The notes below the pieces were generated by a model. The model was not told where the DNA came from. It saw nothing but the letters and a program-made list of their open reading frames with translations, and made no database searches. DNA of 64,000 nt from Warburgia ugandensis (lineage: Eukaryota > Streptophyta > Magnoliopsida > Canellales > Canellaceae), in contig CP141128.1 of NCBI GenBank assembly GCA_035236585.1, positions 54,053,257-54,117,256 on the forward strand, read 5' to 3'. A program made the position numbers and the translations under genes. This document shows, one piece after another, positions 1 to 26,573 of the stretch (positions are counted from its first letter, which is position 1; each line of letters starts with the position of its first letter).

Positions 1-3000
1 AAATAGAGTTCGTATGAAGGAGTTATGGGACTTAAAAGTTAGGGATATTTCATTAATTAAAATTGAAAATGAAAACATAGAAACAACAGGGGGAATTTTG
101 ATAATGGCGGGGAACACTGGTGTAAAAACCTTAAAATTTTACTCCTCCATGATCAGGTCATGAGCTATTAAGAAGTATATCTTTTAATAGAACAATAATT
201 TGTCATTAAAACTAAAACCATTAGGTAAAACTCTGAAAATGGAATCCAACGAGCCAAGGAATGCTGAAAATAGAGTCCATATGAAGGAGCTACAGACTTC
301 AATCTCAGGGTTATTTCATTAAGTAAAAGTGAAAAAAAAAACATTGAAACTGCATGGTGCCATTTTGATATTTGCGAGGCTCACTAGTGTAACAACCTTA
401 AAATTTGGCTATTCCATGATCAGGTTATGAGTATTTAAGAAGTATAAGTTTTAATAGCATAATAATTTCAAATTAAATATGAAATCATTTCTTAGTACCT
501 AGGAACGCCGAAAATAGAGCTCGTATGAAGGAGTTATGGGACTTCAAAGTGGGGACTATTTCATTAACTAAGAGTAAAAGAAAAACATAGAAACCTTATG
601 GGGGAATTTTGATATTCGCGAGGCACATTGGCATAACAACCTTAAAATTTTGCTATTCCATGATCAGGTTATGAGTATTTAAGAAGTATAACTATTCATA
701 GTATGATAATTTCAAATTAAAGCTGAAATCATTTGTTAGTACTCAGAAAATGGAATCCAAGGAGCCATGGAATGCTGAAAATAGAGCACGTATGAAGGAG
801 TTATGGGACTTGAAAGTGAGGGCTATTTCATTAACTAAGAGTGAAAAAAAAATATAGAAACCTCATGGGGCAATTTTGATATTGGCGAGGCTCACTGGCT
901 TAACAACCTTAAAATTTTGCTATTTCATGATCAGGTTATGGGTATTTAAGAAGTATAACTTTTAATAGCATAATAATTTTAAATTAAAGGTGAAATCATT
1001 TGTTAGTACTTGGAAAATGGAATCCAAGGAGCCATGGAACGCTTAAAATAGAGCTCGTATGAAGGAGTTATGGGACTTCAAAGTGAGGCCTTTTTCATTA
1101 ACTAAGAGTGAATGAAAAACATAGAAACCTCATGGGACAATTTTGATATTCGCGAGGCTCACTGGTGTAACAACCTTAAAATTTAGCTATTCCATGATCA
1201 TGTTTTGAGTATTTAAGAAGTATAACTTTCAATAGCATAATAATTTCAAATTAAAGCTGAAACCATTAGATATTACTCAGAAAATCAAATCCAACGAGCC
1301 AAGGAATGCTGAAAATAGAGTTTGTATGAAGGAGTTATCGGACTTCAAAGTCAGGGCTACTTCATTAAGTAAATGTTAAAAAAAAAAGGGAGAAACCTCA
1401 TGGGGCAATTTTGCTATTGGCGGGGGCGTACTGGTGTAACAACCCTAAAATTTTACTATTCCATGATAACGTTATGAGTTTTTAACAAGTATATCTTCTA
1501 ATAGCATAATAATTTGAAATTAAAGCTGATACCATTATATAGTATTCAAAAAATGGAATCCAACGAGCCAAGGAACGCTGATAATAGAGTTCGTATGAAG
1601 GAGTTATGGGACTTAAAAGTTAGGGCTATCTCATTAATTAGAATTGAAAGAGAAAACATAGAAACCTCAGGGGGGAATTTTGATAATGGCGGGGCACACT
1701 GGTGTAACAACGTTAAAATTTTACTCCTCCATGATCAAGTCATGAGATATCAAGAAGTATATCTTTTAATAGAATAATAATTTGGAATTAAAACTAAAAC
1801 CATTAGATAAAACTCTAAAAATGGAATCCAACGAGCCAAGGAATGCTGAAAATAAAGTCTGTATGAAGGAGCTATGGACTTCAATGTCAGTGTTATTTCA
1901 TTAAGTAAAAGTGAAAAAAAAAAAACATAGAAACTTCATGGTGACATTTTGATATTGGCAAGGCTCACTGGTGTAACAACCTTAAAATACTGCTATTCCA
2001 TGATTAGGTTATGACTATTTAAGAAGTTTAACTTTTAATAGCATAATAATTTCAATTTAAATATGAAATCATTTGTTAGTACCAAGGAAATGGAATCCAA
2101 GGAGCTTAGGAACGCCGAAAATAGAGCTCGTATGAAGGAGTTATAGGACTTCAAAGTGAGGGCCATTTCATTAACTAAGAGTGAAAAAAAAAACAGAAAC
2201 CTTATGGGGCAATTTTGATATTCGCGAGGCACATTGGCATAACAACCTTAAAATTTTGCTATTCCATGATCAGGTTATGAGTATTTAAGAAGTATAACTA
2301 TTAATAGTATAATAATTTCAAATTAAAGCTGAAATCATTTGTTAGTACTTAGAAAATGGAATCCATGGAACCATGGAATGCTTAAAATAGGGCTCGTATG
2401 AAGGAGTTATGGGACTTCAAAGTGATGGCTATTTCATTAACTAAGAGTGAAAAAAAAAAGGTAGAAACCTCGTGGAGCAATTTTGATATTGGCGAGGCTC
2501 ACTGGCGTAACAACCTTGAAATTTAGCTATTCCATGATCATGTTTTGAGTATTTAAGAAGTATATCTTTCAATAGCATAATAATTTCAAATTAAAGCTGA
2601 AACTATTAGATAGTACTTAGAAAGTGGAATCCAACAAGCCAAGGAATGCTGAAAATAGAGTTTGTATGGAGTTATCGGACTTCAAAGTCAAGGCTACTTC
2701 ATTATGTGAATGCCAAAAAAAAAAGGGAGAAACCTCATGGGGCAATTTTGCTATTGGCGGGGGCGTACTGGTGTAACAACCTTAAAATTTTACTATTCCA
2801 TGATAATGTTATGAGTTTTTAAGAAGTATATCTTCTAATAGCATAATAATTTGAAATTAAAGCTAATACCATTATATAGTATTCAGAAAATGGAATCCAA
2901 TGAGCCAAGGAACGCTGAAAAGAGAGTTCGTATGGAGTTATGGGGCTTAAAAGTTAGGGCCATTTCATTAATTAAAATTGAAAGAGAAAACATAGAAACC

Positions 3001-6000
3001 TCAGGGGGGAATTTTTATAATGGCGGGGCACACTATTGTTACAACCTTAAAATAATACTCCTCCATGATCAGGTCATGAGCTTTCAAGAAGTATATCTTT
3101 TAATAGAATAATAATTTGAAATGAAAACTAAAACCATTAGATAATAGTGAGAAAATGCACTACAACGAGCCAAGGAATGTTGAAAATAGAGTCCGCATGA
3201 AGGAGCTATCGACTTCAATGTCAGCGTTATTTCATTAAGTGAAAGTGAAAAAAAGAAAAAAGAAAAAGTAGAAACTTCATGTTGCCATTTTGATATTGGC
3301 GAGGCTCACTGGCATAACAACCTTAAAAGTTTACTATTCCATCATTAGGTTATGAGTATTTAAGAACTATAACATTTAATGGCATAATAATTTCAAATTA
3401 AAGCTGAAATCATTTGTTAGTACTTGGAAAATAGAAACCAAGGAGCCAAGGAACGCTGAAAATAGAGCTCGTATGAAGGAGTTATGGGACTTCAAAGTCA
3501 GGGCCATTTCATTAACTAAGAGTGAAAAAAAAATATAGTAACCCCATGGCGCAATTTTGACGTCGGTGAGGCTCACTTGCGTAACAACCTTAAAATTTTA
3601 CTATTCCATAATCAGGTTATGAGTATTTAAGAAGTATAACTTTTAATAACATAATAATTTCAAATTAAAGCTGAAATCATTTGTTAGTACTTAGGAAACG
3701 GAATCTAAGGAGCCAAGGAACCAAGGAATGCTGAAAATAGAGCTCGTATGAAGGAGTTATGGGACTTCAAAGTGAGGGTTATTTCATTAACTAAGAGTGA
3801 AGAAAAAACATAGAAACCTCATGAGGCGATTTTGATATTGGCAAGGCGCACTGGCGGAACAACCTTAAAATTTTCCTATTCCATTATCATGTTATGAGTA
3901 TTTAAGGAGTATAACTTTTAATAGCATAATAATTTCAAATCAAAGCTGAAATCATTTGTTTGTACATAGAAAATGGAATCTAAGGAGCCAAGGAACACTG
4001 AGAATAGAGATCATATGAAGGAGTTATGGGACTTCAAAGTCAGGGCTATTTCATTAATTAAAAGTGAAAAAGAAAACATAGAAACCTTAGGGGGCATTTT
4101 GATAATGGTGGGCTCACTTGTGTAACAACCTTAAAATTTTACTCTTCCATGATCAGGTCATGAGCTTTCAAGAAGTATATATTTTAATAGCATAATAATT
4201 TGAAATTAAAACTAACACCATTAGATAATACTCAGAAAATGGAATCCAATGAGCCAAGAAATGCTGAAAATAGAGTCCGTATGAAGGAGCTATGGACTTC
4301 AATGTCAGGGTTATTTCATTAAGTGAAAGTGACAAAAAAAAAACATAGAAACTTCATGGTGCCATTTTGATATTGGCGAGGCTCACTGGTGTAACAACCT
4401 TAAAATTTTGCTTTTCCATGATCAGGTCATGAGTATTTAAGAAGTATAACTTTTAGTAGCATAATAATTTCAAATTAAATCTGAAATCATTTGTTAGTAC
4501 TAAGAAAATGGAATCCAAGGAGCCAGGGAACACTGAAAATAGTGCTCGTATGATGGAGCTGTGGACATCAATGTCAGGGTTATTTCATTAAGTAAAAGTG
4601 AGAAAAAAACATAGAAGCCTCATGGTGCCATTTTGATATTGGTAAGGCTCACTGGTGTAACAACCTTAAAATTTAGTATTCAATGATCAGGTTATGAGTA
4701 TTTAAGAAGTATAACTTTTAATAGCATAATAATTTCAAATTAAATCTAAAATCATTTGATAGTACTTAGAAAATAGAATCCAAGGAGCCAGGGAATGCTG
4801 AAAATAGAGCTTGTATGAAGGCGTTATGGGACTTCAAAGTGAGGGCTATTTCATTAACTAAGAGTGAACAAAAAACATAGAAACCCCATGGGGCAATTTT
4901 GATATTGACAAGGCTCACTGGTGTGACAACCTCACTATTCCATGATCAGGTTATGAGTATTTAAGAAGTATATCTTTTAATAGCATAATAATTTCAAATT
5001 AAAGCTGAAATCATTTGTTAGTACTTAGAAAATGGAATCCAAGGAGCCATGGAATGCTGAAAATAGAGCTCGTATGAAAAAATTATGGGACTTCAAAGTG
5101 AGGGTTATTTCATTAACTAAGAGTGAAAAAAAACCATAGAAACCTCCTGGGGCAATTTTGGTATTGGCAAGGCTCACTGGCGTAACAACCTTAAAATTTT
5201 GCTATTCCATGATTAGGTTATGGGTATTTAAGAAGTATATCTTTTAATAGCGTAATAATTTCAAATTAAAGGTGAAACCATTTGTTAGTGCTTAGAAAAT
5301 GGAATTTAGGGAGCCATGGAATGCTGAAAATAGAGCTCGTATGAAGGAGTTATGGGACTTCAAAGTGAGGGCTATTTCATTAACTAAGAGTGAAAAAAAA
5401 ACATAGAAACCTCATGGGGCAATTTTGATACTGGCCAGGCTCACTGGCGTAACAACCTTAAAATTTTGCTATTCCATGATCAGGTTATGAGTATTTAAGA
5501 AGTATATCTTTTAATAGCATAATAATTTCAAATTAAAGCTGAAATCATTTCTTAGTGCTTAGAAAATGGAATCCAAGGAGCCATGGAATGCTGAAAACAG
5601 AGCTCGTATGAAGGAGTTATGGGACTTCAAAGTGAGAGCTATTTCATTAACTATGAGTGAAAAAAAAACATAGAAACCTCATGGGGCAATTTTGATATTT
5701 GCGAGGCTCACTGGCGTAACAACCTTGAAATTTAGCTATTCCATGATCATGTTTTGAGTATTTAAGAAGTATTTCTTTCAATAGCGTAATAATTTCAAAT
5801 AAAAGTTAAAACCTTTAGATGGTACTCAGAAAATGGAATCCAAGGAGCCAAGGAATGCTGAAAATAGAGCTCGTATGGAGGAGTTATGGGACTTTAAAGT
5901 CATGGCTACTTCATTATGTAAATGTTAAAAAATAAAGGGAGAAACCTCACGGGGCAATTTTGCTATTGGCAGGGGCATACTGCTGTAACAACCTTAAAAT

Positions 6001-6109
6001 TTTACTATTCCATGATAACGTTATGAGTTTTTAAGAAGTATATCTTCTAATAGCATAATAATTTCAAATTAAAGCTGATACCATTATATAGTATTTAGAA
6101 AATGGAATT
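1..6109 (+). repeat. Satellite block 1: ~268-bp monomers, about 23 copies
   Basis: Head-to-tail array with a period of 267-269 bp; for example, the ATGGAATCC landmark falls at 1553, 1821 and 2090. Four monomer classes can be told apart by the stretch after TTTCATTAA. A has TTAAAAGTGAAAAAGAAAAC. B has GTAAAAGTG followed by CTTCATGGTGCC. C has CTAAGAGTG followed by CTCATGGGGCAATTTTGATA. D has GTAAATGTTAAAA, an AGGGAG stretch and GGCGGGGGCG. The order is B-(C)n-D-A. Class A monomers begin near 1527, 2870 and 6075, that is 5 and 12 monomers apart, because the number of C copies varies. The + strand is the LTR-sense polarity. The block is cut at 6109 by an LTR insertion. Short frames of 60-87 codons exist in some class A monomers, but 268 is not a multiple of three and they do not extend, so I do not call them genes. 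Confidence 0.97.
3960..4740 (+). repeat. Hybrid satellite monomers (C/A and C/B)
   Basis: The monomer beginning near 3950 has a class C first half (GAAATCATTTGTTTGTAC) and a class A second half (TTAATTAAAAGTGAAAAAG). The monomer beginning near 4485 has a class C start but a class B middle (GGAGCTGTGGACATC, then TTAAGTAAAAGTG). These look like products of unequal exchange or gene conversion inside the monomer. The class assignment is by eye. Confidence 0.7.
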
Positions 6110-9100
6110 TGTGATGACCCGGGTTTTGCAAACATGATTTGTAAGGTAATTTGAAAGGCAGGGCCCTTAAGAGTGTAAAAAAATTTCGCAAAACAAAGCA
6201 ATGGAAATTCTCTTCTTTAGAACTTGTTTTGAAAACCCAAGTCACCACTTCATACATAACATATGTACAATTTGTGTACAAAATAAAATTCCATTGAAGG
6301 AATATACTTTTATTAAACTCTAGGATCCATCCAGTGGTTCACAATATAGCCAAATCTAGTACAATACTTGTCCAAATTACATAATCCAAAACTCAAGCTC
6401 ACCATACTATAAAACTCTCAACAAAGGAAAATACATGTCTTCAAGGGTATACCTTGAAGATTATTCTCTTCAGGACTTCTATCATCTTCAGCTCCTAATT
6501 CTCCTTCCCTGTATCTGAGATATTGCAACAAGTACAATATCTCAACAAGCAATGCTTGGTAGGGGATTCAAGAAACATAACATTGACAATGTAATTCCAA
6601 TACTTCCTAATCCCATTATCTTTAAACATACACTTTACTTTGTAAGTTATGTATATCTATATACATACATACCCTTCATGGGTAAACTAGTTAAATTTGT
6701 GAAAATAGTCAAATATCATTCCCAACTAAGCTGATCAATTCTCTTCATTTTGAGAATTTAGTATTACAGCTAATCTTATACTGGGATTTTCCCTTCTTGG
6801 GAAATATTGGTAATATACAATTATCTAGCATTTCATTATGCTACAACATAAGGCATTTCACTATGCCTATTCTCATGTGTATCATAGTGCAAAATAATCA
6901 AAAAGGTTGCTATGCTGTAGTCTGATCGATACTAGCGCACTCGGATAACTGCCTTGTTCACCACTGAGACCACGGTGGAAAATATTATGTCACTACCCAT
7001 ATGGGGGGGCAAGACTTTCACAGTGGTGGCCTTCCCATAATTGCCATCACCCGACTTTTAGCCTCTCTTAGGGCAAGGTATCATCACATCATCAAATGTC
7101 ATGGAGCGGGTGGCCAAGCCCTCATAACTCCTCTAGCAATAGCATTCCCCTAGGCTTATGCCTATTAAAACAAACTCACAAGCCTCCAAGCTTGTATGTA
7201 AAATAGATTCCATATATATCAGACCATATGTATGTTTGCTTAGGGCTGAAATATTTCCTAGTTCCCTATATTCACTTATAGTTTACTCTTTAACCTTCTT
7301 ATATGTGTTTGGTTGGATCATAAGGTTTTCAAGAGATTTAATACAAGTATTATCATTACTCTTGTCAACATAAGATCATGAGTACAATCATGTATGCATT
7401 CATCAAATCCTCCTACCATTAAGGATTGATCTCTTTTCCAATCTTCCATGATCCTGACTGATGCATGTAATCTATACATCCATACATATTGTCAATATAT
7501 AAATTATGAACAATTCTATTGATCACTAGATCTGATGTTTAGAATCATCTTTAGATCATTCATATCTAAGTATTTTTCTATTTCTCAGTCTTTGTATATC
7601 CATCTCCTTGATCTTGATCTTTCATAGATCCATTGATTGACAATGTACACATGTTGATAAACATCAAGGTCCTAGATCTTCTATCATCTAGTTCTTCTTT
7701 TATCTAAGTTCAGTTATTGGATCATCCCTATGGAGGATGATCTTGGTTTTCTTCCTTGAATCATCTTTGATCAAGGTTTTGGATTATCTAATCTAATGAC
7801 CTATAACAAGTATACTAATAAACATGCATACTAAGTACAATATGATGTTCTTATTCTTATTGTTCTTGATCATCCAAGATCTAATGGATCTTGTTTGATC
7901 ATCCTTATCTTACTTACTGTTTTTATTAGGGTTAAGTAATTTACTAACCTTTTATGCTCTTATTATTATTATTCAACTAATTAATGTGCTGGTTGAAGGT
8001 AGCTTATTCAAGCCTCAATACTGCTCCTCTTATTTCTAATTGGCTAAGGCTTACTAGCTGAATGGGTGAACACAAAGTGGTTACTTCAATCCTCATGTAA
8101 GGAGGTGTTTAGACCTCACAAACGTCAATGGAAGGTAGGGGAAGAGCGAGGCTCTATTAGATAACCCCCTTAACCACTATGTCCATCATTCACTAGAATG
8201 ACCATAGCTCAACCTTTCATAAGGTTCCTATAAGCATGTTTACCCTAAGTACTCTTTCTAATGGATTTTAATTAAGTACATGAATATTTATAATGTCATT
8301 CATGGGGTTTATTATTCTTTTCCTAATTTGGGCCAAGGACTTGATAATCCTTATATTGTCCTACTAACCATAGCCCTTACTAATTAAGTCCAAAGTACTC
8401 CATTCTTATTTATGTCATGAAACTCTACTTTCTCATTAGAATACATTTTTGATGTTTTATGCTCTTTATCTCATAACAAGTAGATCTACTAATAACATTT
8501 AACCATAAATGAATTATAAATTCAGAGCATAAAACTACATAATTTAACATTTAATGATAATGAGGCAAGGTACTTAAAATAATTAAATCTAGCACCTTAT
8601 GGCAACAATGATATCACATATCATGCTAAAGTCTAAATGTTATACTAGCATGCTTTATAACATAATCATATTTAAAATGCTATTATATAAAATGAAACTA
8701 ATTACATTAACATTTTTAGAAACCTCTACTTATGATCCAACCATTTAATCTTAGATTTTTTCCTTTGATTAAAGGTATTAGTTATATTTAGGGGATTTTC
8801 TTTATTAAGGTCAAAAGATCATATTGATCTATTTTTGTCATAATCCATCCATGATTTCCTTGGATTTCATCATATCAACATTCATTCTATCCATCCCAAG
8901 GATCTGATCACACTTGATCTCATTGATCAAGTGGGTCCCTTGGTATTTTTAGGGTTTTTCTACCATAATGGGTAGATCCCTTAATATATCTCATATATAT
9001 CCACTTAAACAATAGATCTCACTTTATTTCAATAGTATGTCATTATAAAAACATATTTTCAAGATCTGATCATCTCAGATCATCTCAGATCTAGGTAATT

Positions 9101-10068: not shown

Positions 10069-10076
10069 TATTTATA
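10069..10076 (-). promoter_or_regulatory. Candidate TATA box of LTR 1
   Basis: The minus strand reads CCTATAAATACAACC, matching the plant TATA consensus TATAAATA. It lies about 550 bp from the LTR 5' end (10627). If used, U3 would be short and the R/U5 portion about 4 kb, which is long for an LTR. Confidence 0.55.
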
Positions 10077-10624: not shown

Positions 10625-10627
10625 ATA

Positions 10628-11369
10628 GAATCCAATGAGCCAAGGAATGCTGAAAATAGAGTTCGCATGAAGGAGCTATGGACTTCAAAGTTAGGGTTAA
10701 TTCATTAAGTAAAAGTGAAAAAAAAAACATAGAGACTTCATGGTACCACTTAGATATTGGCGAGGCTCACTAGTGCAACAACCTTAAAATTTTACTATTC
10801 CATGATCTAGTTATGAGTATTTAAGAAGTATAACTTTTAATAGCATGATAATTTCAAGTTAAAGCTGAAATCAATTGGTAGTGCTTAGAAAATGGAATCC
10901 AAGGAGCCAAGCAACGCTGAAAATAGAGCTTGTATGAAGGAGTTATGGGACTTCAAAGGCAGGGCTGTTTCAGTAACTAAGAGTGAAAAAAAAACATTGA
11001 AACCTCATGGGGCAATTTTGATATTGGCAAGGCTCACTAGCGTAACAACCTTAAAATTTTGCTATTCCATGATCAGGTTATGAGTATTTAAGAAGTATAA
11101 CTTTTAATAGCATAATAAGTTCAAATTAAAGGTGACATCATTTGTTAGTACTTAGAAAATGGAATCCAAGGAGCCATGGAATGCTGAAAATAGAGCTCGT
11201 ATGAAGGAGTTATGGGACTTCAAAGTGAGGGCTATTTCATTAATTAAAAGTGAAAAAGAAAACATAGAAACCTCAGGGGGGCATTTTGATAATGGCGGGG
11301 CTCACTAGTGTAACAACCTTAAAATTTTACTCTTCCACGATCAGGTCATGAACTTTCAGGAAGTATATC
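10628..11369 (+). repeat. Satellite block 2: ~2.8 monomers between two solo LTRs
   Basis: Short remnant of the 268-bp array between LTR 1 and LTR 2. It reads class B (10628 to about 10860), class C (about 10870-11130), then a C start switching to a class A second half (TTAATTAAAAGTGAAAAAG near 11240). It is interrupted at GAAGTATATC by LTR 2. Confidence 0.95.
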
Positions 11370-11720
11370 TGTGACGACCCGAGTTTTTATATGATGCAAT
11401 TTTGATAAAAAGGCGAGATCTCTTGTTTTATAAGTATGAGATGCATGAAAATCTTTTTCTTTTGGAAAACAATCTTTCATAAAAACCCCGAGCGTCAAAA
11501 CACATTCTCAAATTATTTAGCCATGGCAAAGTTTAAATCAATATTGTTCCCAAGAAAGTGTTAGTCACAGTCCCAGCTATTAGAGAGTAACTACAATTAA
11601 GTAACATTGAAAGATAAGGTAGGGGTTTACTTACTTGTACTTAGTCTGGGTGTCTCCTAGCACAAACGTTCCTTGCCCTTAAGTATTTACTTTGTATCTG
11701 AAAAATGTTGAGGATTGGGT

Positions 11721-11737
11721 GAGTATATACTATACTC
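11721..11737. other. Conserved 17-bp inverted repeat in the LTR family
   Basis: GAGTATATACTATACTC has 7-bp arms (GAGTATA/TATACTC) and a 3-bp spacer. The same motif, preceded by GGT, is present in LTR 3 (27640-27656), LTR 4 (50484-50500) and the first array LTR (55230-55246). Two array LTRs (58661-58677, 62099-62115) end in CCC instead of CTC. It stays nearly unchanged between copies that differ a lot around it. The role is unknown. Confidence 0.75.
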
Positions 11738-12217
11738 AGTAGGAGCCTATCACTACTAGTTGTATAATGCATGAGATGTTTTAAAATCATATGCTCATTC
11801 AAAACATGTGTGTGTTTGAATACTCAAGTGCAACATCGATATTAAAATCCATTGTTAAACTTAAAGGATCATATAATCCAAAATCGAAAGTATCATATAC
11901 ATATATATCATAACATCATCATATGCATAAGATGCTTCATGGAATCCAACTCATGGATTTCTAGTATGGTATGGTCGACCAACCTCATATCATGCCATAT
12001 GCAATGCAAATAAGTCCATAAACCATAAGGTCCAAACTATGCCCACGACCTCACCGCCGTGGGGTCCCCGGGTACCTGAGGACACTCGGTCATAGCCTCC
12101 ACGGGGCCTATGACACATCTTCGTCGTAAATCATGCAATCTATGCAATCGGTTGCAAAACATGCATGAAATGCACAAAATTTGCTCATGCTAGTATTACA
12201 TTCAAAGTCATAACCTT

Positions 12218-12267
12218 GCCTAGAAGCCTGATAGCCTAGAAGCCTGCCAGCCTAGAAGCCTTGTCAG
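12218..12267. repeat. Minisatellite, ~16-17 bp x 3, in LTR 2
   Basis: Three tandem copies of a unit containing GCCTAGAAGCCT. LTR 4 carries only two copies at 50998-51030, and the LTR 3 subfamily has unrelated sequence there. This is an ordinary slippage difference useful for subfamily typing. Confidence 0.8.
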
Positions 12268-13074
12268 CTCTCTTTGGCCCGCCCTCATCGGTAAAGGCTA
12301 CACTTATCATGCAATCTATGCATGTAGCACATGTCTTGCCAATATATGCACGATGTATTTTTAAAAACCTGCCCTCTTTGGGTCCCTCACAACTGCCTAA
12401 CCCTCGGCACTCCAGCGTCTTTTGGTAACGCTCAAGGACATGCAATTTTTGCAAGAACTTATGCTTCACAATCATGAAATGTATTCAATAGTTTGCAAAA
12501 TATATCTATGCATAATGTATATGCAATTATTTACAAAACATGTCTATGCATAAAGCATTTATCACATGCATGCTGAATTAAGTTATGCTAAACAAGTCAT
12601 ATACTTAAAACATGTATTCTAAATCAATAATAGTTCTTTTAAAAGCATCTAGTAGTGATAGAGCACCTACCTGACTAGGTTGCGCTAACCCTTTTGTCCT
12701 CGTACGCTCCTGAACATGGTTTGGGGACTCAAGGTTAGTTTGGCCTATCTTTTATGGCTTTTTAGAGTAATTAGTCTTATTACTTAGGCCTTAGGGGTCC
12801 ATCCCTATGCCTATGGGTGTCCTAAGGTCCTAATTGGGCCTTGGTATCCTTATTTTTCCAAAGGTCTGGTGGCCACGCGCCACCATCCTATTCTAAGGGT
12901 CATGCCCACCTTTGATTGGGCCTTGATCAGGGATTTTATAGTTTGGATTTGTCCGCGTCGTTGACATGTACACAACACCTTTTGCGGCGCCTCAATCGGA
13001 GCTCTAGATCTCAAGTTATAAGCGTTTTAGTGTCGCACGTATATAGAAGTCTTAAAAATAAAAAGACGGAATGC

Positions 13075-13250
13075 TAGGGCGCTGCGCGTCTGCATTGTGC
13101 GCCCCGGCTTCCTTAAGGAACGAAAAAAACCCGCAGCGCTAGCGCACTGCGTGTCTGCGGCGTACGCCTCAGTGGGCGCGTCTGCAGACGCGCCGGATTT
13201 TCCCGCTTCTCTTTCTCTTTTGCGGGCGCGTCCCTGGACGCGCCCGTTTG
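13075..13250. other. GC-rich palindromic patch in LTR 2
   Basis: Contains a perfect 20-bp palindrome at 13175-13194 (GGCGCGTCTG and its complement). It also contains an 11-bp inverted repeat with a 2-bp spacer at 13223-13246 (CGGGCGCGTCC / GGACGCGCCCG). It lies about 330-500 bp downstream of the TATA box in transcript direction. LTR 3 has a less perfect counterpart near 28990-29060 and LTR 4 a decayed one near 51870-51910. Confidence 0.75.
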
Positions 13251-13580
13251 GTTTTTCAAACAGAACGACATGGGACGTTCCGACTGGAACATCCTACTCG
13301 TTGGGGAACCAGGGCATCCTCAGGACATCCTGGTTCGACCTTGTCGAACCAGTGCGGCCCAGGGGACATCCCTGGGTCCTTGGTGAGTCTCCAGGGCTCC
13401 ATTTTGCATGCTTTTTCATGCAAAAACCTAGGGAAATTGACCTTGGAACTATGGTGGAGATGGGTTTTGAGGGATCTTGGGCATACCTGGTTCGTTCCTG
13501 GGTTTTTCTCCTTGTTTTTCCCTCTAGGTCACTGCTCCACGACGGGTTTTCTTCAACATTTTGGGCTGCCATTATAGCTC

Positions 13581-13588
13581 TATTTATA
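13581..13588 (-). promoter_or_regulatory. Candidate TATA box of LTR 2
   Basis: The minus strand reads GCTCTATAAATAGAGC, a strong TATA box set inside a short palindrome. It is 404 bp from the LTR 5' end. Transcription would start near 13550 and proceed towards lower coordinates. Confidence 0.65.
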
Positions 13589-13689
13589 GAGCTAAGAGAG
13601 GGTTCTAGAGGGGGCTCTCACCGCCTTTGAATGGCGGTGATTTCTCCTCCAATCACTGCCGTTCTAGAACCTTCTAGAGGTTGAAGATG

Positions 13690-13992
13690 AAGGGGTGCCC
13701 GTATCAAAACGGGCCCCTGTCTTTTGCAAGTTAAAACCTTTTTTGTAAAAATTACGTTTTTGCCCCTGAACGTCAAAGGGCCATAACTTGCTCGTTTTAA
13801 CTCCGTTTTGGGTGATTTTGGTCTTGTTGAATTCCTTTTTCTGAGATGCATCTAATGGAACTATTTTTAGGACCAAATTTCTGGGTTCAGTTGAGGTAAA
13901 TAGTGAAATGACCAAAATGCCCTTATCTTCAAAACCTGATCTTTTCATTGCTTAACTTGGAATTTCAATATTACAAAATTGGATTCATTAAA
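13690..13992 (-). repeat. U3 segment of LTR 2 homologous to the satellite monomer
   Basis: Read on the minus strand, this ~303-bp segment follows the satellite monomer from end to end. Shared landmarks in order are a TGTAA-type start, GATCAGGTT.TGA, AATTTGG, CCATTAGAT, CTCAGAAAA, GGAAT.CAAC, GGAGTT or GAGTT, AGTTATGG, CAGGG, and CAGGGG.CC..TTTTGATA. From AATTTGG to AGTTATGG the two align without gaps over about 100 positions, with roughly two thirds identical by hand count. The main length difference is about 36 bp between GATCAGGTT and AATTTGG. The matching part of LTR 4 is 52292-52595. Confidence 0.85.
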
Positions 13993-16900
13993 ATATCTTT
14001 TAATAGCATAATAATTTGGAATTAAAACTAAAAGCATTATATAATGCTCAAAAAATGGAATCCAACGAGCCAAGGAATGCTGAAAATAGAGTTCGTATGA
14101 AGGAGTTATGGGACTTCAAAGTCAGGGCTATATCATTAAGAAAGAGTGAAAAAAAAAACATAGAAACCTCATGGGGCAATTTTGATATTGGCGGGGGCGT
14201 ACTGGTGCAACAACCTTAAAATTTTACTATTCCATGATAACATTATGAGTTTTTAATAAGTATATCTTCCAATACCATAATAATTTCAAATTATGGCTGA
14301 TACCATTATATGGTATTCAGAAAATGGAATCCAAGGAGCCAAGGAACACTGAAAATAGAGTTCGTATGAAGGAGTTATGGGACTTCAAAGTTAGCACTAT
14401 TTCAGTAATTAAAAGTGAAAAAGAAAACATAGAAACCTCAGGGGGCCATTTTGATAATGGCAGGGCTCACTAGTGTAACAACCTTAAAATTTTACTCTTC
14501 CATGATCAGGTCCTGAGCTTTCAAGAAATATATCTTTTAATAGCATAATAATTTGAAATTAAAAGGAAAAGCATTACTTAATATTCAGAAAATGGAATCC
14601 AACGAGCCAAGGAATGCTGAAAATAGAGTCCGTATGATGGAGCTATGGACTTCAAAGTCAGAGTTATTTTATTAAGTAAAAGTAAAAAAAACACAGAGAA
14701 ACTTCATGGTGCCATTTTGATATGAGCGAGGCTTACTGGTGTAACAACCTCAAAATTTTACTATTCCATGATAGGTTATGAGTATTTAAGAAGTATAACT
14801 TTTAATGGCATAATAATTTGGAATTAAAATTAAAAGCATTAGGTAATACTAAGAAAATGGAATCCAACGAGCCAAGGAATGCTGAAAATAGAGTTCGTAT
14901 GAAGGAGTTATGGGACCTCAAAGTTAGAAAAAAAAACATAGAAACCTCATGGGGCAATTCTGATATTGGCAAGGCTCACGGGCCTAAGAACCTTAAAATT
15001 TTGCTTTTCCATAATAAGGTTAATAGTATTTAACAAGTATAACTTTTAATAGCATAATAATTTTAAATTAAACCTGAAAGCTTTAGATAGTACTCAGAAA
15101 ATGGAATCCAAGGAGCTAAGGAACGCTGAAAATAGAGCTCGTATGAGGGAGTTATGGGACATCAAAGTCAGGGCTATTTCATTAACTAAGAGTGAAAAAA
15201 AAAACATAGGAATCTCAGGGGGCCATTTTGATAATGGTGGGGATCACTGGGGTAACAACCTTAAAATTTTACTCTTCCATGATCAGGTCATGAGCTTTCA
15301 AGAAGTATATCTTTTAATAGCATAATAATTTAGAATTAAAACTAAAACAATTAGATAATACTCAGAAAATGGAATCCCATGAGCCAAGGCATGCCGAAAC
15401 TAGAGTCCGTATGAAGGAGCTATGGACTTCAAAGTTAGGGTTATTAAACATAGTATAAGAGAAAAACAAATCATAGAAACTTCATGGTGCCATTTTGATA
15501 TTGGCGAGGCTCAATGGTGTAACAACCTTAAAATTTTACTACTCAATGATCAGGTTATGATTATTTAAGAAGTATATCTTTTAATAGCATAATAATTTCA
15601 AATTAAAGCTGAAACCATTAGATGGTACTCAGAAAATGGAATGCAACGAGCCAAGGAACGCTAAAAATACAGTTCGTATGAAGGAGTTATGGGACTTCAA
15701 AGACAGGGCTACTTCATTAAGTAAATGTTAAAAAAAAGGGGAGCAACCTCATGGGGCAATTTTTCTATTGGCGGGGGCATACTGGAGTAACAACCTTAAA
15801 ATTTTACTATTCCACGATAACATTAGGATTTTTTAAGAACTATATCTTCTAATAGCATAATAATTTCAAATTAAAGCTGATACCATTATATAGTGTTCAG
15901 AAAATGTAATCTAACGAGCCAAGGAACGCTGAAAATGGAGTTCGTATGAAGGAGTTATGGGCCTTCAAAGTCAGGGCTATTTCATTAATTAAAAGTGAAA
16001 AAGAAAACATAGAAATCTCAGGGGGCATTTTGATAATGGCGGGGCTCACTGCTGTGACAACCTTAAAATTTTACTCTACCATGATTAGGTCTTGAGCTTT
16101 CAATAAGTATATCTTTTAATACATAATAATTAGGAATTATAACTAAAAGCATTAGATAATACTCAACAAATGGAATCCAACGAGGCAGGGAATGCTGAAA
16201 ATAGAGTCCGTATGAAGGAGCTATGGACTTCAAAGTCATGGTTATTTCATTAAGTAAAAGTGAAAAAAAAAACATAGAAACTTCATGGTGCGATTTTGTT
16301 ATTGGCAAGGCTCATTGGTGTAACAACCTCAAAATTTTACTATTCCATGATTAGGTTATGAGTATTTAAGAAGTATAACTTTTAATAGCATAAAAATTTC
16401 AAATTAAATCTAAAATCATTTGTTAGTACTTAGAAAATGGAATCAAGGGAGCTAAGGAATGCTGAAAATAGAGCTCATATGGAGTTATGGGACTTCAAAG
16501 TCAGGGCTATTTGATTAACTAAGAGTGAAAAAAAAAAACATAGAAACCTCATGGGGCTATTTTGATATTGGCGAGGCTCACTGGCATAACAACCTTAAAA
16601 TTTTGCTATTCTATGATTAGGTTATGAGTATTTAAGAAGTATATCTTTTAATAGCATAATAATTTCGAGGTAGAGTTGAAACCATTAGATAATACTCAGA
16701 AAATGGAATCCAACGAGCCAAGGAATGCTGGAAATAGGGTTCGTATGAAGGAGTTATGGGACTTCAAAGTCAGGACTACTTCATAAAGTAAATGTCAAAA
16801 AAAAAGGAGGGAGAAACCTCATGGGGGAATTTTGCTACTGGCGGTGGCGCACTAGTGCAACAACCTTAAAATTTTACTATTCCATGATAATGTTATGAGT

Positions 16901-19900
16901 TTTTGAGAAATATATCTTCTTATAGTATAAAATTTTCAAATTAAAGCTGATACCATTAAAAAGTATTCAGAAAATGGAATCCAAGGAGCCAAGGAACGCT
17001 GAAAATAGAGTTCGTATGAAGGAGTTATGGGTGAGGCTCACTGGTGTAACAACCTTAAAATTTTACTATTCCATGATCAGGTTATGAGTATTTAAGAGGT
17101 ACATCTTTTAATAGCATAATAATTTCAAATTAAAGCAGAAATCATTTGTTAGTACTTAGAAAATGGAATCCAAGGAGCCAAGGAACGTTGAAAATAGAGT
17201 TCGTATGAAGGTGTTATGGGACTTCAATGTCAGGGCTATTTCATTAACTAAGAGTGAAAAAAAAAGATAGAAACCTCAGGGGGCCATTTTGATAAAGGCG
17301 GGGCTCACTGGTGTAACAACCTTAAAATTTCACTCTTCCATGATTAGGTCATGAGCTTTCAAGAAGTATATCTTTTAATAGCATAATAATTTGGAATTAA
17401 AACTAAAACCATTAGATAATACGCAGTAAATATAATCCAACGAGCCAAGGAATGCTCAAATAGAGCCCATATGAAGGAGCTATGGACTTCAAGGTCAAGG
17501 TTATTTCATTAAGTAAAAGTGTAAAAAATACATAGAAACTTCATGCTGCCATTTTGATATTGGTGAGGCTCACTGGTGTAACATCCTTAAAATTTTACTA
17601 TTCCATGATTAGGTTATGAGTATTTAAGAAGTATAACTTTTAATGGCATAATAATTTCAAATTAAAGCTGAAATCATTTGTTAGTTTTTAGAAAATGGAA
17701 TCCAAGCAGCCAAGGAACGCTAAAAATAGAGCTCGTCGAAGGAGTTATGGGACTTCAAATTCAGGACTATCTCATTAACTAAGAGTGAAAAAAAAAACAT
17801 AGAAACCTCATGGGGCAATTTCGATATTGGCGAGGCTCACGGGCGCAACAAACTTAAAATTTTGCTCTTGCATAATCAGGTTACGAGTGTTTAAGAAGTA
17901 TGACTTTTAATAGCATAATAATTTCAAATTAAAGCTGCAATCATCTGTTAATACTTAGAAAATCGAATGCAAGGAATGCTGAAAATGGAGTTTGTATGAA
18001 GGAGTTATGGGAGTTCAAAGTTGGGGCTATTTCATTAATTCAAAGTGAAAAAGAAAACGTAGAAACCTCCAGGGCCTATTTTGATAATGGCGGGGCTCAC
18101 TACTGTAACAACCTTAAAATTTTACTCTTCCATGATCAGGTCATGAGCTGTCAAGAAGTATATCTTTTAATGGCATAATAATTTGGAATTAAAACAAAAA
18201 CCATTCTATAATACGCACAAAATGGAATCGATCGAGCTAAGGAATGCTAAAATAGAGTCCGTATGAAGGAGCTAGGGACTTCAATGTCAGGGTTATTTCA
18301 TTAAGTAAAAGTGAAAAAAAAAAAAAAAACATAGAAACTTCATGGTGCCATTTTGATATTGGCGAGGCTCACTGGTGAAACAACCTTAAAATTTTACTAT
18401 TGCATGATCAGGTTATGAGTATTTAAGTGGTATATCTTTTAATAGAATAATAATTTCAAATTGAAGCTGAAATCATTTGTTAGTACATAGAAAATGGAAT
18501 CCAAGGAGGCATGGAACGTTGAAAATAGAGCTTGTATGAAGGAGTTATGGGACTTCAAAGTCAGGGCTATTTCATTAACTAAGAGTGAAAAAAAAAAATA
18601 GAAACCTCAGGGGGCCATTTTGATAAAGGCGGGGCTCACTGGTGTAACAACCTTAAAATTTCACTCTTCCATGATCAGGTCATGAGCTTTCAAGAAGTAT
18701 ATCTTTTAATAGCATAATAATTTGGAATTAAAACTAAAACCATTAGATAATAGGCAGTAAATATAATCCAACGAGCCAAGGAATGCTCAAATAGAGCCCA
18801 TATGAAGTAGCTATGGACTTCAAAGTTAAGGTTATTTCATTAAGTAAAAGTGTAAAAAAAACATAGAAACTTCATGCTGCCATTTTGATATTGGCGAGGC
18901 TCACTAGTGTAACAACCTTAAAATTTTACTATTCCATGATTAGGTAATGAGTATTTAAGAAGTATCACTTTTAATGGCATAATAATTTCAAATTAAAGCT
19001 GGAATCATTTGTTAGTGCTTAGAAAATGGAATCCTAGCAGGCAAGGAACACTAAAAATAGAGCTCGTATGAAGGAGTTATGGGATTTCAAATTCAGTACT
19101 ATTTCATTGACTACAAGTGAAAAAAAAACATAGAAACCTCATGGGGCAATTTTGATATTGGCGAGGCTCACGGGCACAACTAACTTAAAATTTTGCTATT
19201 CCATAATCAGGTTATGAGTATTTAAGAAGTATATCTTTTAATAGCATCATAATTTCAAATTAAAGTTGAAACCATTAGATAGTACTCGCAAAATGGAATG
19301 CAACGAGCCATGGAACGCTAAAAATAGAGTTCATATGAAGCAGTTATGTGACTTCAAAGTAAGGGTTACTTCATTAAATAAATGTTAGAAAAAAAGGGAG
19401 CAACCTCATGGTGTAATTTTGCTATTGGCGGTGGCGTACTGGTGTAACAACCTTAAAATTTTACTATTCCATGATAACGTTATGAGTTTTTAAGAAGTAT
19501 ATCTTCTAATAGCATAATAATTTCAAATTAAAGCTGATACCACTAAAAAGTATTCAGAAAATGGAATCCAAGGAGCCAAGGAACACTGAAAATAGAGTTC
19601 GTATGGAGTTATGGGACTCCAAAATATGTATATTGCATTAATTAAGAGTGAAAAAGAAAACATAGAAACCTCAGGGGGCCATTTTGATAATGGTGGAGTT
19701 CACTGGTGTAACAACCTTAAAAATTTTTTACTCTTCCATGATAAAGTCATGAGCTTTCAAGAAGTATCTCCTTTAATAGCATAATAATTTGGAATTAAAA
19801 CTAAAACCATTAGATAATACTCAGAAAATCGAATCCAACGAGCCAAGGAATGCTGAAACTAGAGTTCGTATGAAGGTGCTATGGACTTCGAAGTCAGGGT

Positions 19901-20799
19901 TATTTCATTAAGTTAAAGTGAAACACAAGATAGAAACATCATTGGCGAGGCTCACTGGTGTAACAACCTTAAAATTTTACTATTCCATGATCAGGTTATG
20001 AGTATTTAAGAAGTATAACTTTTAATGGCTTAATAATTTCCGAAGAAACCTAAAATCAATTGTTAGTACTTAGAAAACAGAATCCAAGGAGCCAAGGAAT
20101 GCTGAAAATAGAGCTCATATGAAGGAGTTATGGGACTCCAAAGTTAGGGTAATTTCATTAACTTAGAGTAAAAAAAAACCAGAGAAACCTCATGCAGCAA
20201 TTTTGATATTGGGGTGGCTAACGGGCATATAAACCTTAAAATTTTGCCAGTCCACAATCAGGTTATGAGTATTTAAGAAGTATAACTTTTAATATCCTAA
20301 TAATTTCAAATTAAAGCTGAAATCATCTGTTAGTACTTAAAAAATGGAATCCAAGGAACCAGGGAACGCTGAAAATAGAGTTGGTATGAAGGAGCTATGG
20401 GACTTCAAAGTTAGGGCTATTTCATAAACTAAGAGTGAAAAAAAAACATAGAAACCTCATGGGGAAATTTTGATATTGGCGATGCTCACGGGCGTAACAA
20501 CCTTAAAATATTACTATTCCATGATCATGTTATGCGTATTTAAGAAGTATAACTTTTAATAGCACAATAATTTCAAATTAAATCTGAAATCATTTGTTAG
20601 TACTTAGAAAATGTCATCCAAGGAACGCTGAAAATAGAGCTCGTATGACGGGGTTATCGGACTTCAAAGTCAGGGCTATTTCATTAACTAAGAGTGAAAA
20701 AAAAACATAAAAACCACAGGGGGCCATTTTCATAATGCCAGGGCTCGTTGGTGTAACAACCTTAACATTTTACTCTTCCATGATCAGGTCATGAGCTTT

Positions 20800-22200
20800 C
20801 AAGAAGTATATCTTTTAATAGCATAATAATTTGGACTTAAAACTAAAACCATTCGATAATACGTAGAAAATGGAATCCAACGAGCCAAGGAATGCTGAAA
20901 TAGAGTCCGTATGAAGGAGCTATGGACTTCAAAGTCAGGGTTATTTCATTGAGTAAAAGTGAAAAAAAAACATAGAAACTTCATGGTGCCATTTTGATAT
21001 TGGCGAGGCTCACTGGTGTAACAACCTTAAATTTTTACGATTCCATGATCAGGCTATGAGGATTTAAGAAGTATGACTTTTAATAGCATAATAATTTCAA
21101 ATTGAAGTTGAGATCATTTGTTAGTACTTAGAAAATGGAATCCAAGGAGCCAAGGAACATTGAAAATAGAGCTCGTATGATGGAGTTATGGGACTTCAAA
21201 GCCAGGGCTATTTCATTAACTAAGAGTGAAAAAAGAACATAAAAACCTCATGGGGCAATTTAGATATTGGCGATGCTCACTGGCATAACAACCTTAAAAT
21301 ATTACTATTCAATGATCAGGTTATAAGTTTCTAAGAAGTATATCTTTTAATAGCATCATAATTTCAAATTAATGTTGAAACCATTAGATAGTACTTAGAA
21401 AATGGAATGCAACGAGCCATGGAATGCTGAAAATAGAGCTCGTATGAAGGAGTTATGTGACTTCAAATTTAGGATTACTTCATTAAATAAATGTTAGAAA
21501 AAAGAAGGGAGAAACCTCATGCGGCAATTTTGCTATTGGCGGTGGCGTACTGGAGTAACAACCTTAAACTTTTACTATTCCATGATAATGTTATGAGTTT
21601 TTAAGAACTATATCTTCTAATAGCATAATAATTTCAAATTAAAGCTGATACCACTAAAAGTATTCAGAAAATGGAATCCAAGGAGCCAAGGAACGGTGAA
21701 AATAGAGTTCGTATGAAGGAGTTATGGGACTCCAAAGTTAGGGCTATTTCATTAATTAAAAGTGAAAAAGAAAACATAGAAACCTCAGGGGGCCATTTTG
21801 ATAATGGTGGGGTTCACTGGTGTAACAAGCTTAAAATTTTACTCTTCCATGGTAAGGTCATGAGCTTTCGAGAAGTATATCTTTTAATAGCATAATAATT
21901 TGGAATTAAAACTAAAACCACTAGATAATACTCAGAAAATGGAATCCAATGATCCAAGGAATGCGGAAACTAGAGTCCGTATGAAGGAACTAGGGACTTC
22001 AAAGTCAGGGTTATTTCATTAAGTAAAAGTGAAAAACAACATCGAAACATCATGGTGCAATTTGATATTGGCGTGGCTCACTGGTGTAACAACCTTAAAA
22101 TTTTACTTTTCCATGATTAGGTTATGAGTATTTAAGAAGTATAACTTTTAATGGCATAATAATTTCAAAATAAAGTTGAAATCAATTGTTAGTACTTAGA
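20800..22200 (+). repeat. Satellite segment duplicated at 29.6-31.0 kb
   Basis: About five consecutive monomers share rare variants with 29600-31000. Examples are ATTTCATTGAGTAAA, CCTTAAATTTTTACGATTCC, AAAAAAGAACATAAAAACC and TTACTATTCAATGATCAGG, in the same order and spacing. The copies are about 8.8 kb apart, and LTR 3 now lies between them. Confidence 0.8.
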
Positions 22201-22794
22201 AAATGGAATCCAAGGAGCCAAGGAACGCTGAAATTAGAGCTTGTATGAAGGAGTTATGGGACTCCAAAGTTAGGGCAATTTCTTTAACTAAGAGTGAAAA
22301 AAAAAAAAACAGAGAAACCTCATGGGGCAATTTTGATATTGGCGTGGCTCACGGGCATATAAACCTTAAAATTTTGCTATTCCACAATCATGTTATGAGA
22401 ATTTAAGAAGTATAACTTTTAATAGCATAATAGTTTAAAATTAAAGCTGAAATCATCTGTTAGTACTTAGAAAATGGAATCCAAGGAGCCAGGGAACGCT
22501 GAAAATACAGTTGGTATGAAGGAGCTATGGGACTTCAAAGTCAGGGCTATGTCATTAACTAAGAGTGAAAAAAAAACCTAGAAACCTCATGGGGAAATTT
22601 AGACATTGGCGATGCTCACGGGCGTAACAACCTTAAAATATTACTATTCCATGATCATGTTATGCGTATTTAAGAAGTATAACTTTTAATAGCACAATAA
22701 TTTTGAATGAAATCTGAAATCAGTCGTTAGTACTTAGAAAATGTAATCCAAGGAACCAAGGAACGCTGAAAATAGAGCTCGTATGATGGAGTTA

Positions 22795-22840
22795 TGGGAC
22801 TTCAAAGTCAGGGGGCCATTCTGATAATGGCGGGGCTCAC
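22795..22840 (+). other. Microhomology deletion in a satellite monomer
   Basis: The monomer reads AAAGTCAGGGGGCCATT. The intact class A monomer has TCAGGG twice, about 47 bp apart: once after CAAAG and once before GGCCATT. Loss of one copy plus the DNA between gives this junction exactly. Confidence 0.75.
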
Positions 22841-25800
22841 TAGTGTAACAACCTTAAAATTTTACTCTTCCATGATCAGGTCATGAGCTTTCAAAAAGTA
22901 TATCTTTAATAGCATAATAATTTGGAATTAAAACTAAAACCATTAGATAATGCTCAGAAGATGGAATCCAACGAGCCAAGGAATGGTGAAAAGCGAGTCT
23001 GTATGAAGGAGCTATGGACTTCAAAGTCAGGGTTATTTCATTAAGTAAAAGAGAAAACAAAAACATAGAAACTTCATGGTGCCATTTTTATATTGGCGAG
23101 GCTCACTGGCGTAACAACCTTAAAAATTTACTATTCCATGATCAGGTTATGAGTATTTGAGAAGTTTAACTTTAATAGCATAATAATTTCACATTAAAGC
23201 TAAAATCATTTGTTAGTACTTAGAAAATGGAATCCAAGGAGCTAAGGAATGCTGAAAATAGAGCTCAGATGATGGAGTTATGGGACTTCAAAGTTGGGGC
23301 TATTTCAGTAACTAAGAGTGAAAAAAAAACATAGAAACCTCGTGGGGCAATTTTCATATTGGCGAGGCTCACTGGTGTAACGACCGTAAAATTTTGCTAT
23401 TCCATGATCAGGTTATGAGTATTTAAGAAGTATATCTTTTAATAGCATAATAATTTCAAGTTAAAGTTGAAACCATTAAGTAGTACTCAGCAAATGGAAT
23501 CTAACGAGACAAGCAACGCTGAAAATATAGTTCGTATGAAGGAGTTATGGGACTTCAAAGTCAGGGCAACTTCATTAAGTAAATGTTAAAAAAAAAGGGA
23601 GAAACCTCATGGGGCAATTATGCTATTGGTGGGGGCGTACTAGTGTAACAACCTTAAAATTTTACTATTCTATCATAACGTTATGAGTTTTTAAGAAGTA
23701 TATCTTCTAATAGCATAATAATTTGAAATTAAAGCTGATACCATTATATAGTATTCAAAAAATGGAATCCAAGGAGCCAAGGAACGCTGAAAATAGAGTT
23801 CGTATGAAGGAGTTATGGGACTTAAAAGTTAGGGATATTTCATTAATTAAAATTGAAAAAGAAAACATAGAAACCTCAAGGGCCATTTTGATAATGGTGG
23901 GGCTCACTGGTGTAGCAACCTTAAAATTTTACTCTTCCATGATAAGGTCATTAGCTTTCAAGAAGTATATCTTTTAATAGCATAATAATTTGAAATTTAA
24001 ACTAAAACCATTAGATAATACTAAGAAAATGGAATCCAACGAGCCAAGAAACGCTGAAAATAGACCTCGTATGAAGGAGTTATGGTACATCGCAATTAGG
24101 GTTATTTCATTAATTAAAAGTGAAAAAGAAAACATAGAAACCTTAGAGGGCCATTTTGATAATGGCGGGGCTCATTGGTGTAACAACCTTAAAATTTTAC
24201 TCTTTCATGATCAGGTCATGAGCTTTCAAGAAGTATATTGTTTAACAGCATAATAAGTTGGAATTAGAACTAAAACCATTAGATAATACTCAGAAAATAG
24301 AATCCAACGAGCTAAGGAATGCTGAAACTAGAGTCCGTATGAAGGAGCTATGGACTTCAAAGTCAGGGTTATTTCATTAAGTAAAAACGAAAGAAAAAAC
24401 ATAGAAACTTCGTGGTGCCATTTTGACATTGGCAAGGCTCACAGGTGTAACAACCTTTAAAATTTTACTATTCCATGATCAGGTTATGAGTATTTAAGAA
24501 GTATAACTTTTAATAGCACAATAATTTTATATTAAAGCTAAAATCATTTTTTAGTAATTAGAAAATTGAATCCAAGGAACCATGGAACGCTGAAAATAAA
24601 GCTCGTATGAAGGAGTTGTGGGACTTCAAAGTTAGGGCTATGTCATTAACTAAGAGTGAAAAAAAAACACAGAAACCTCATGGGGCAATTTTGATATTGG
24701 CGATGCTCACGGGCATAAGAACCTTAAAATTTTTCCATTCCATAATCAGGTTATGAGTATTTAAGAAGTATAACTTTTAATAGCACAATAATTTAAATTA
24801 AAGCTGAAAGCAACTGTTAGTACTTAGAAAATGGAATCCAAGGAGCCAAGGAACACTGACAAAAAAGCTTGTATGAAGGAGCCATGGGACTTCAAAGTCG
24901 GGGCTATTTCATTAGCTAAGAGTGAAAAAAAGTATAGAAACCTCATGGGGCAATTTTGATATTGGCGATGCTCACTGGCGTAACACCCTTAAAATATTAC
25001 CATTCCATGATCAGGTTATGAGTATTTAAGAAGTATATATTTTAATAGCATAATAATTTCAAATTAAAGCTGAAAGCATTATATTGTACTCAGAAAATGA
25101 AATGCAACGAGGCAAGGAACGCTAAAAATAGAGTTCGTATGAAGGAGTTATGGGACTTCAAAGTCAGGGTTACATCATTAAGTCAATATTAATAAAAAAA
25201 GGGAGAAATCTCATGGGGCAATTTTGCTATTGGCAGGGGCGTGCTGGTGTAACAACCTTGAAATTTTACTATTCCATGATAACGTTATGAGTTTTTAAGA
25301 AGTATATCTTCTAATAGCATAATAATCTCAAATTAAAGCTGATACCACTATATAGTATTCAGAAAATGGAATCCAAGGAGCCAAGGAACGCTGAAAATAG
25401 AGTTCGTATGAACGAGTTATGGGGCATCAAAGTTAGGGCTATTTCATTAATTAAAAGTGAAAAAGGAAACATAGAAACCTCAAGGGGCCATTTTGATAAT
25501 GGTGGGGCTCATTGGTGTAGCAACCTTAAAATTTTACTCTTCCATGATAATGTCATTAGCTTTCAAGAAGTATATCTTTTAATAGCATAATAATTTGGAA
25601 TTTAAACTAAAACCATTAGATAATACTAAGAAAATGGAATCGAACGAGCCAAGGAATGCTGAAAATAGAGTCCGTATGAAAGAGCTATGGACTTCAAAGT
25701 CAGGCTTATTTCATTAAGTAAAAGTGAAAAAAAAAACATAGAAACTTCATGGTGCCATTTTGATATTGGCGAGGCTCACAGGTGTAACAACCTTAAAATT

Positions 25801-26556: not shown

Positions 26557-26573
26557 GCCATTTTGATAATGGC
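26557..26573 (+). other. Example of the conserved monomer hairpin
   Basis: GCCATT-TTGAT-AATGGC, a 6-bp stem. The equivalent LTR 2 sequence (13697-13714, minus strand) is GCCCGT-TTTGAT-ACGGGC, also a 6-bp stem with different bases. Other classes keep shorter stems, such as CAAT-TTTGAT-ATTG in class C and CCAT-TTTGATT-ATGG in the 38-46 kb variant. Confidence 0.65.

Follow-up and report, generated by a model that had tools for sequence, protein, structure and literature searches.

How a satellite DNA begins is a long-standing question; in many satellites no trace of the source is left. The question is raised here by a stretch of 64,000 nucleotides from Warburgia ugandensis (C3:54,053,257-54,117,256, hereafter the window), part of a 1.12-Gb genome of 14 contigs. 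The window consists chiefly of a 268-bp satellite in head-to-tail arrangement, as detected with TRF and nhmmer, which is interrupted by long terminal repeats (LTRs) and other inserts. The initial annotation proposed that this satellite is a tandemly amplified fragment of U3, the 5' end of a retrotransposon LTR. Our analysis makes that descent very probable, by way of a break-repair join, a spread on chromosome C3 and later insertions of an LTR family, A, into the array. To judge from sequence similarity, the parent is a lineage of family C and single-unit LTRs described below, and the family A LTRs of the window (LTR 2 and LTR 4) are its distant cousins.

The monomer is collinear over its full length with the first ~290 bp of two solo LTRs on the minus strand of the window, LTR 2 (11370..13992) and LTR 4 (50132..52595); in LTR 2 the U3, i.e. 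the first 303 bp (13690..13992, minus strand), aligns with the whole of it. When 1000 dinucleotide shuffles were used as controls, LTR 2 reached a local score of 44.5 (z = 13.0; shuffle maximum 27.0) and the first 330 bp of LTR 4 a score of 38.0 (z = 10.4; shuffle maximum 28.5), both far over the shuffles, and the best score among 58 satellite-free 330-bp pieces of the chromosome was 28.5. Six LTR pieces were compared with shuffles in all, with z values of 10.4 to 58 in five and 5.5 in the sixth, the first unit of a family C LTR (L044). The remainder of LTR 2 and of LTR 4 exhibited no monomer signal (z -0.7 to 1.2). A monomer profile also matched LTR 2 (13879-13764, E 1e-6) and LTR 4 (E 2e-7), both on the LTR sense strand. 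The profile was built from 169 rows that did not include these two matches, and one plus-strand row overlaps the LTR 4 end by 63 bp, on the opposite strand.

About 100 gapless positions at two-thirds identity had been counted by hand in the initial annotation, in line with the ungapped stretches measured between monomer and LTR 2 (95 columns at 64.2%, 110 at 62.7% and 60 at 70%). Common landmarks in the same order, likewise claimed, were recovered by exact match: seven of seven inner landmarks in LTR 2 in the order given, four of seven in LTR 4, and six of seven in the monomer consensus. AATTTGG is not in the consensus, yet it is present in 51 of 180 monomers. The best of the 268 circular rotations of the monomer was, for both LTRs, the one starting at TGTAAC, with a margin of only 0.5-1 score unit over its neighbours. 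On the other hand, TGTAAT had been mistaken for the LTR start; the real family A end sits 17 bp upstream, at TGTAATGACTCC.

Family A is, on the evidence of its sequence features, a Ty3/gypsy LTR retrotransposon. A full-length relative (L039) carries the domains Retrotrans_gag, RVP_2, RVT_1, RT_RNaseH, Integrase_H2C2 and SH3_Tf2-1 in this order (two of seven pieces gave no match), corresponding to gag-PR-RT-RNaseH-integrase, and the family has TG..CA LTRs and 5-bp target duplications; a chromodomain was absent among the domain matches of the seven pieces. In longer copies the LTR start TGTAATGACTCC is preceded by the polypurine tract AAGGGGG. The terminus of LTR 2 has decayed to TTTAATGAATCC, the first bases on the minus strand having changed from TG to TT, and a TATA-like CTATAAATAG lies at LTR offset 403, past the monomer-collinear part. 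The LTRs of a second family, B, start with TGTAAYGCYYGAGC after the same AAGGGGG tract, and in one copy the LTR end ..GTGACA is followed by GTTGGTATCAGAGCC, which we take to be the usual methionine-tRNA primer site.

A conserved-core pattern with at most three mismatches, by which satellite monomers were also admitted, found 7,714 places in the genome (reversed control 0). All 30 family B loci sampled matched the monomer profile, 29 of them with E values of 4e-12 to 1e-21 and one with 2e-7, and eight family A loci used for comparison gave 2e-6 to 4e-10. Mean pairwise U3 identity in a MAFFT alignment was 60% between satellite and family B, 54% between satellite and family A, and 62% between the two families.

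The genome-wide search for LTRs with the U3 closest to the monomer, suggested by the initial annotation as a check, did uncover such LTRs. An exact pattern for a C-like LTR carrying the monomer word GAGCCAAGGAA gave no match in the genome. A second pattern, in which the monomer core was combined with the LTR word GGCACCC, gave two: a satellite monomer, and the LTR L044 on C2, where a purine-rich tract is followed by the start TGTAACAACCCCAAAATTTG, by a unit 90% identical to the satellite consensus and then by LTR. Its partner LTR 7.4 kb upstream (L086) has the same layout, with 91% identity over 399 bp, and is interrupted by a deletion inside the satellite-like unit. The family that these LTRs represent, C, is dispersed independently of the array, as the parent of an LTR-derived satellite should be: 40 scored places (of 3701 candidates) span all 14 contigs at 82-100% identity.

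Twenty-two family C copies were studied, namely the L044/L086 pair and 20 of the 40 scored places (L088-L107). The satellite-like unit is present in every one of them, with profile E values of 9e-48 to 1e-68, and in 19 the profile also detected an earlier, more diverged partial unit ahead of it, units 1 and 2 sharing ~70% identity across ~128 columns. Family C thus has a U3 that is itself a partial tandem of ~1.6 units. By local alignment, the mean identity of unit 2 to the satellite consensus is 87.1% (83.5-90.1% in the 22 copies); the satellite monomers average 89.9% to that same consensus, their own (n = 180). Past the common part, 21 of the 22 copies continue as variants of GGCACCCC, the 22nd (L086) being deleted there. 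The same continuation occurs after the common part in families A and B, but not in the monomer consensus.

The monomer start, TGTAACAACC, resembles the terminus of the family C LTR and differs from the start of unit 2, and LTRs with one terminal unit were therefore predicted before any were searched for. A single-unit pattern matched eight places in the genome (reversed control 0), and seven of these are indeed such LTRs, one each on C3, C5, C7, C8 and C14 and two on C13. At the LTR terminus they start with T[GA]TAACAACC (TGTAACAACC in five, TATAACAACC in two), and by local alignment they are 83.7-87.6% identical to the monomer. Six cover it from position 0 or 2 to 256, and the seventh to 209 by local alignment and to 256 by profile. 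Beyond position 256 the LTRs proceed with GGCACCC and further LTR sequence, whereas the satellite has 12 other bases and then restarts. All seven copies continue as variants of GGCACCCC, a word that was part of the selecting pattern. Their flanks appeared unrelated by eye save for a purine-rich flank common to two; a purine-rich stretch, as expected of a 3' LTR, precedes L147 and L150 and likewise L044.

When sequences were aligned globally with the satellite consensus and gaps left uncounted, mean identity was 70% for nine family A sequences, 72% for 22 of family B and 83% for the seven single-unit LTRs. Both family A, to which LTR 2 and LTR 4 belong, and family B were accordingly rejected as the parent. 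A better match of the monomer to some unrelated sequence had been named as grounds for abandoning the idea of an amplified U3 fragment. A better match was found, yet it too is an LTR end and keeps the same register, and the idea is strengthened by it: to the homology far above shuffles, seen for families A, B and C, it adds LTRs that match monomer positions 1-256.

The eighth match of the single-unit pattern, L151 (C3:34183721), was excluded from the LTR set, as it consists of 48 bp of satellite fused to a family A U3. At this place in the 34-Mb array (L151 220-470; C3:34183719-34183969) satellite and family A U3 are joined in register, as if homologues had recombined.

The monomer is thus composed of the terminal 256 bp of the LTR 5' end and a 12-bp filler, GRGGCTCACTGG, after which it restarts at TGTAACAACC. 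The initial annotation had it run from an LTR start to a point about 300 bp inside, of which the start at the terminus stands, whereas the remainder has to be replaced by 256 bp plus filler. In the origin that we propose, break repair would have joined LTR position 256 to the LTR start in one copy of the lineage on C3. The join would have carried the 12 bp of filler and given a head-to-tail U3 dimer, with the rest of the LTR left out. Unequal exchange, gene conversion or a similar process may then have lengthened the dimer into arrays measuring tens to hundreds of kb, lying at four places on C3 and in part inverted. Family A, only distantly related, would later have inserted its solo LTRs into the finished array. 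LTR 2 and LTR 4 are solo LTRs within the satellite, flanked by 5-bp target duplications (ATATC on both flanks of LTR 2, ATTAT at LTR 4), and must therefore have been inserted after the array existed. A later reinvasion by relatives of the parent, as first suggested, is hence supported as to the insertion, but the relationship is only a distant one.

The relationships were assessed in unrooted trees of ~270 columns, six in succession with 30, 30, 65, 60, 57 and finally 52 monomers. The final tree held 52 monomers, drawn from the C3 arrays at 24, 34 and 54 Mb, and with them 22 family C, seven single-unit, 22 family B and nine family A sequences. The rows for A and B were the 29 of 37 loci (L002-L038) that passed a start pattern (seven A, 22 B) and the two window LTRs; the eight loci that failed it, all of family B, were left out. 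All 52 monomers form one clade (support 100/97) among the family C and single-unit LTRs, and these three groups together are separated from A and B with 100/99. When the single-unit LTRs were omitted, family C and the satellite were sisters. In the tree with 57 monomers, five of the eight taken from the 34-Mb array are the first to split off inside the satellite clade (support 100/95 for these five and 97/90 for the whole satellite), and the five, when checked, showed no fusion to family A.

The satellite is largely specific to chromosome C3, with about a thousand or more copies. All 28 exact matches to a 37-bp monomer junction (a complete list) lie on C3, at 24.78-24.81, 34.09-34.23 and 54.07-54.09 Mb; four are inside the window, as was also found by direct count. 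A looser junction (31 bp, at most three mismatches) matched 1096 times genome-wide (reversed control 0), and this pattern catches 129 junctions within the window. Among the 100 loose matches listed, 99 are on C3, including 25.28-25.51 Mb, and one is on C6; those listed are from the plus strand only and include 10 of the 27 exact window places, and diverged arrays may occur elsewhere. An exact 80-bp monomer pattern proved too strict, with a single match, within the window. The C6 match is a 301-bp satellite fragment across a monomer junction (L152 534-835; C6:39785033-39785334), with no further satellite within the 1.5 kb read. By point samples, the arrays of C3 extend over ~24.70-24.86, 25.28-25.60 (with interruptions), 34.08-34.23 and 53.94-54.11 Mb, and their orientation changes in places. 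At C3:53.94-54.05 Mb the point samples show at least two such flips of the 268-bp array in ~110 kb.

A centromeric satellite of the whole genome would be expected in arrays on all or most chromosomes. This is not what was found, with 28 of 28 exact junctions and 99 of the 100 listed loose ones on C3, and a genome-wide centromeric satellite is therefore unsupported; its confinement largely to C3 makes the satellite unlike such a repeat. Within the window only two reading frames of at least 120 amino acids were seen, the longer of 177. Most likely the arrays have neither a coding role nor a genome-wide centromere role and are a chromosome-specific by-product of LTR recombination.

A second tandem array adjoins the satellite (54858..64000, minus strand, from self-comparison and family B matches) and continues past the window end, so that two LTR-derived satellites of different composition lie side by side on C3. 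Its unit of ~3.43 kb consists of the 3' part of a family B LTR and 2.4 kb of family B internal sequence. Self-comparison gave 97.7% identity at offsets 55180/58611 and 96.8% at 55180/62049, and the array matches family B elements (L041-L043) at 84-94%. The unit was found again at C3:54.120, 54.180 and 54.200 Mb, the three samples being 95.8-98.6% identical. The U3 duplicated in family C, the 268-bp arrays and this independent array could be read together as marks of a recurrent satellite-forming site. The U3 end of the lineage would then be a recurrent seed of tandem repeats in a C3 stretch that repeatedly makes satellites, possibly a young C3-specific centromere, a reading that we offer tentatively and consider rather doubtful.

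Another way to make the first tandem is nested insertion: an element would have landed in the LTR of a relative, in matching orientation and at a depth of 256-268 bp, so that U3 followed U3. The point of restart agrees with it, as it corresponds to the terminus of the single-unit LTRs; family C already has a U3 that is a partial tandem of ~1.6 units, and nested insertions are named as one possibility for CRM repeats by Sharma et al. (PMC3648361). However, had such an insertion been clean, the 12 bp ahead of TGTAAC should be further LTR sequence (ACCCC...), and the observed bases are not. With filler instead of LTR sequence before the restart, break repair is the likelier founder, and we regard nested insertion as unlikely.

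The direction of descent could also be reversed, with an older satellite of which one monomer was captured as U3 by an LTR lineage. The family C LTRs and the monomers are sisters in trees that are unrooted, and for Ogre elements Vondrak et al. discuss two scenarios, in one of which the elements took up fragments of satellite (PMC7004042). In contrast to what capture would lead one to expect, the far-diverged families A and B hold the homologous segment at the same place of the LTR with the same continuation, GGCACCCC, and the exact satellite junction is restricted to one chromosome while the scored family C LTRs are on all 14 contigs. The last 12 bp of the monomer, moreover, follow the unit in none of the 21 family C and none of the seven single-unit copies that continue past it, and the 52 monomers are one clade with every LTR outside. 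Distribution and register thus favour an LTR state before the satellite state, the clade of monomers coming from an unrooted tree, and capture appears very improbable. Chance resemblance, through A/T-rich composition or a short common promoter motif with the rest unrelated, has next to no likelihood: the best ungapped windows of LTR 2 and LTR 4 do sit in one core near GGAATCCAACG...AGTTATGG, but the 1000 shuffles and 58 real pieces stay well under the scores, and the single-unit match covers positions 1-256.

Several points weigh against descent of the satellite from the U3 of the family C and single-unit lineage as we propose it. No LTR was found that passes into an array through its own parental sequence and so would mark the birth site. 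A source of the filler was sought further along the LTR in 18 family C pieces, of which one matched 13 of 15 bases and one 12, the other 16 reaching only 8-10; the best of 300 shuffles gave 12 of 15, so that the pieces with 8-10 resemble shuffles. All seven single-unit LTRs stayed at 9-10 of 15 over the ~1.5 kb read. The family C and single-unit LTRs make up a polytomy in which neither group is a separate clade, in a tree that is unrooted, and bootstrap values had not settled in the two trees with 30 monomers each. Membership of the parent in Ty3 is suggested by its LTR ends and purine tract, and in the L086/L044 element, the one family C element examined, no frame of at least 100 amino acids was seen between the LTRs in the pieces read. 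The mechanism of amplification, finally, is inferred.

In the window, the satellite runs head to tail on the plus strand with a defined junction, as a satellite derived from an LTR should. The monomer profile matched 174 times, two of these being the matches to LTR 2 and LTR 4, and mean pairwise identity is 84% (1500 random pairs from 146 full monomers). Five blocks were delimited: 2..6181 (nhmmer and TRF), 10625..11369, 13993..27327, 29428..50131 and 52596..54855 (the last three by nhmmer). The second reaches the insertion of LTR 2, the profile match ending at 11371 and the LTR starting at 11370. In the fourth, a satellite piece of about one monomer (46220-46490) is inverted amid the plus-strand array. 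A truncated, family-A-like LTR without the U3 part, LTR 3, occupies 27328..29427 on the minus strand, with matches to LTR 2 within 11410-13594. An insert of 4.4 kb (6182-10624), with a 20-bp tandem repeat at 10143, did not match the five family A or B stretches compared.

Since the source family, its U3-duplicated sister, the C3 arrays and the later re-invasion are all contained in one genome, the birth of this satellite is easily traced. The monomer start at the LTR terminus lets the joining event be located to the base, and the traced origin yields predictions for related species. LTR-derived satellites are already known, among them Sobo, CRM1TR/CRM4TR and RPCS (PMC3648361), and a study of jujube proposes pieces of LTRs as a source of tandem repeats (PMC12596083). 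No publication on this 268-bp satellite was recognised by title or abstract opening, which does not establish its absence in print.

Sobo of wild potato (Tek et al. 2005, via PMC3648361) is likewise similar to LTRs of gypsy elements and located in the pericentromere of one chromosome, but its monomer, in an array of ~360 kb, is a 4.7 kb composite, whereas the present one is 268 bp, i.e. one LTR 5' end and 12 bp. CRM1TR and CRM4TR of maize are tandem repeats from LTR sequence of Ty3 elements, with genomic parents identified (PMC3648361); as described there, however, their units combine LTR and untranslated region and have variable 5' ends within the LTR, while the present unit begins at the terminus and lies wholly in U3. 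The adjoining array of 3.43-kb units, with its LTR 3' part and internal sequence, is closer to CRM1TR than the 268-bp satellite is. RPCS of rodents has a 348 bp monomer related to LTR U3 (PMC3648361), differing from the 256 bp of a plant-type LTR found here, in which the TATA-like site of LTR 2 (offset 403) lies beyond the collinear part. The Ogre-derived satellites of Lathyrus sativus also expanded from retrotransposon sequence, mainly in particular chromosome regions, but the source given for them is the 3' untranslated region, with its short tandem arrays, and not an LTR end (PMC7004042). What is particular to the satellite of W. ugandensis is its start at the LTR terminus, together with identified single-unit parents and a sister family with a duplicated U3.
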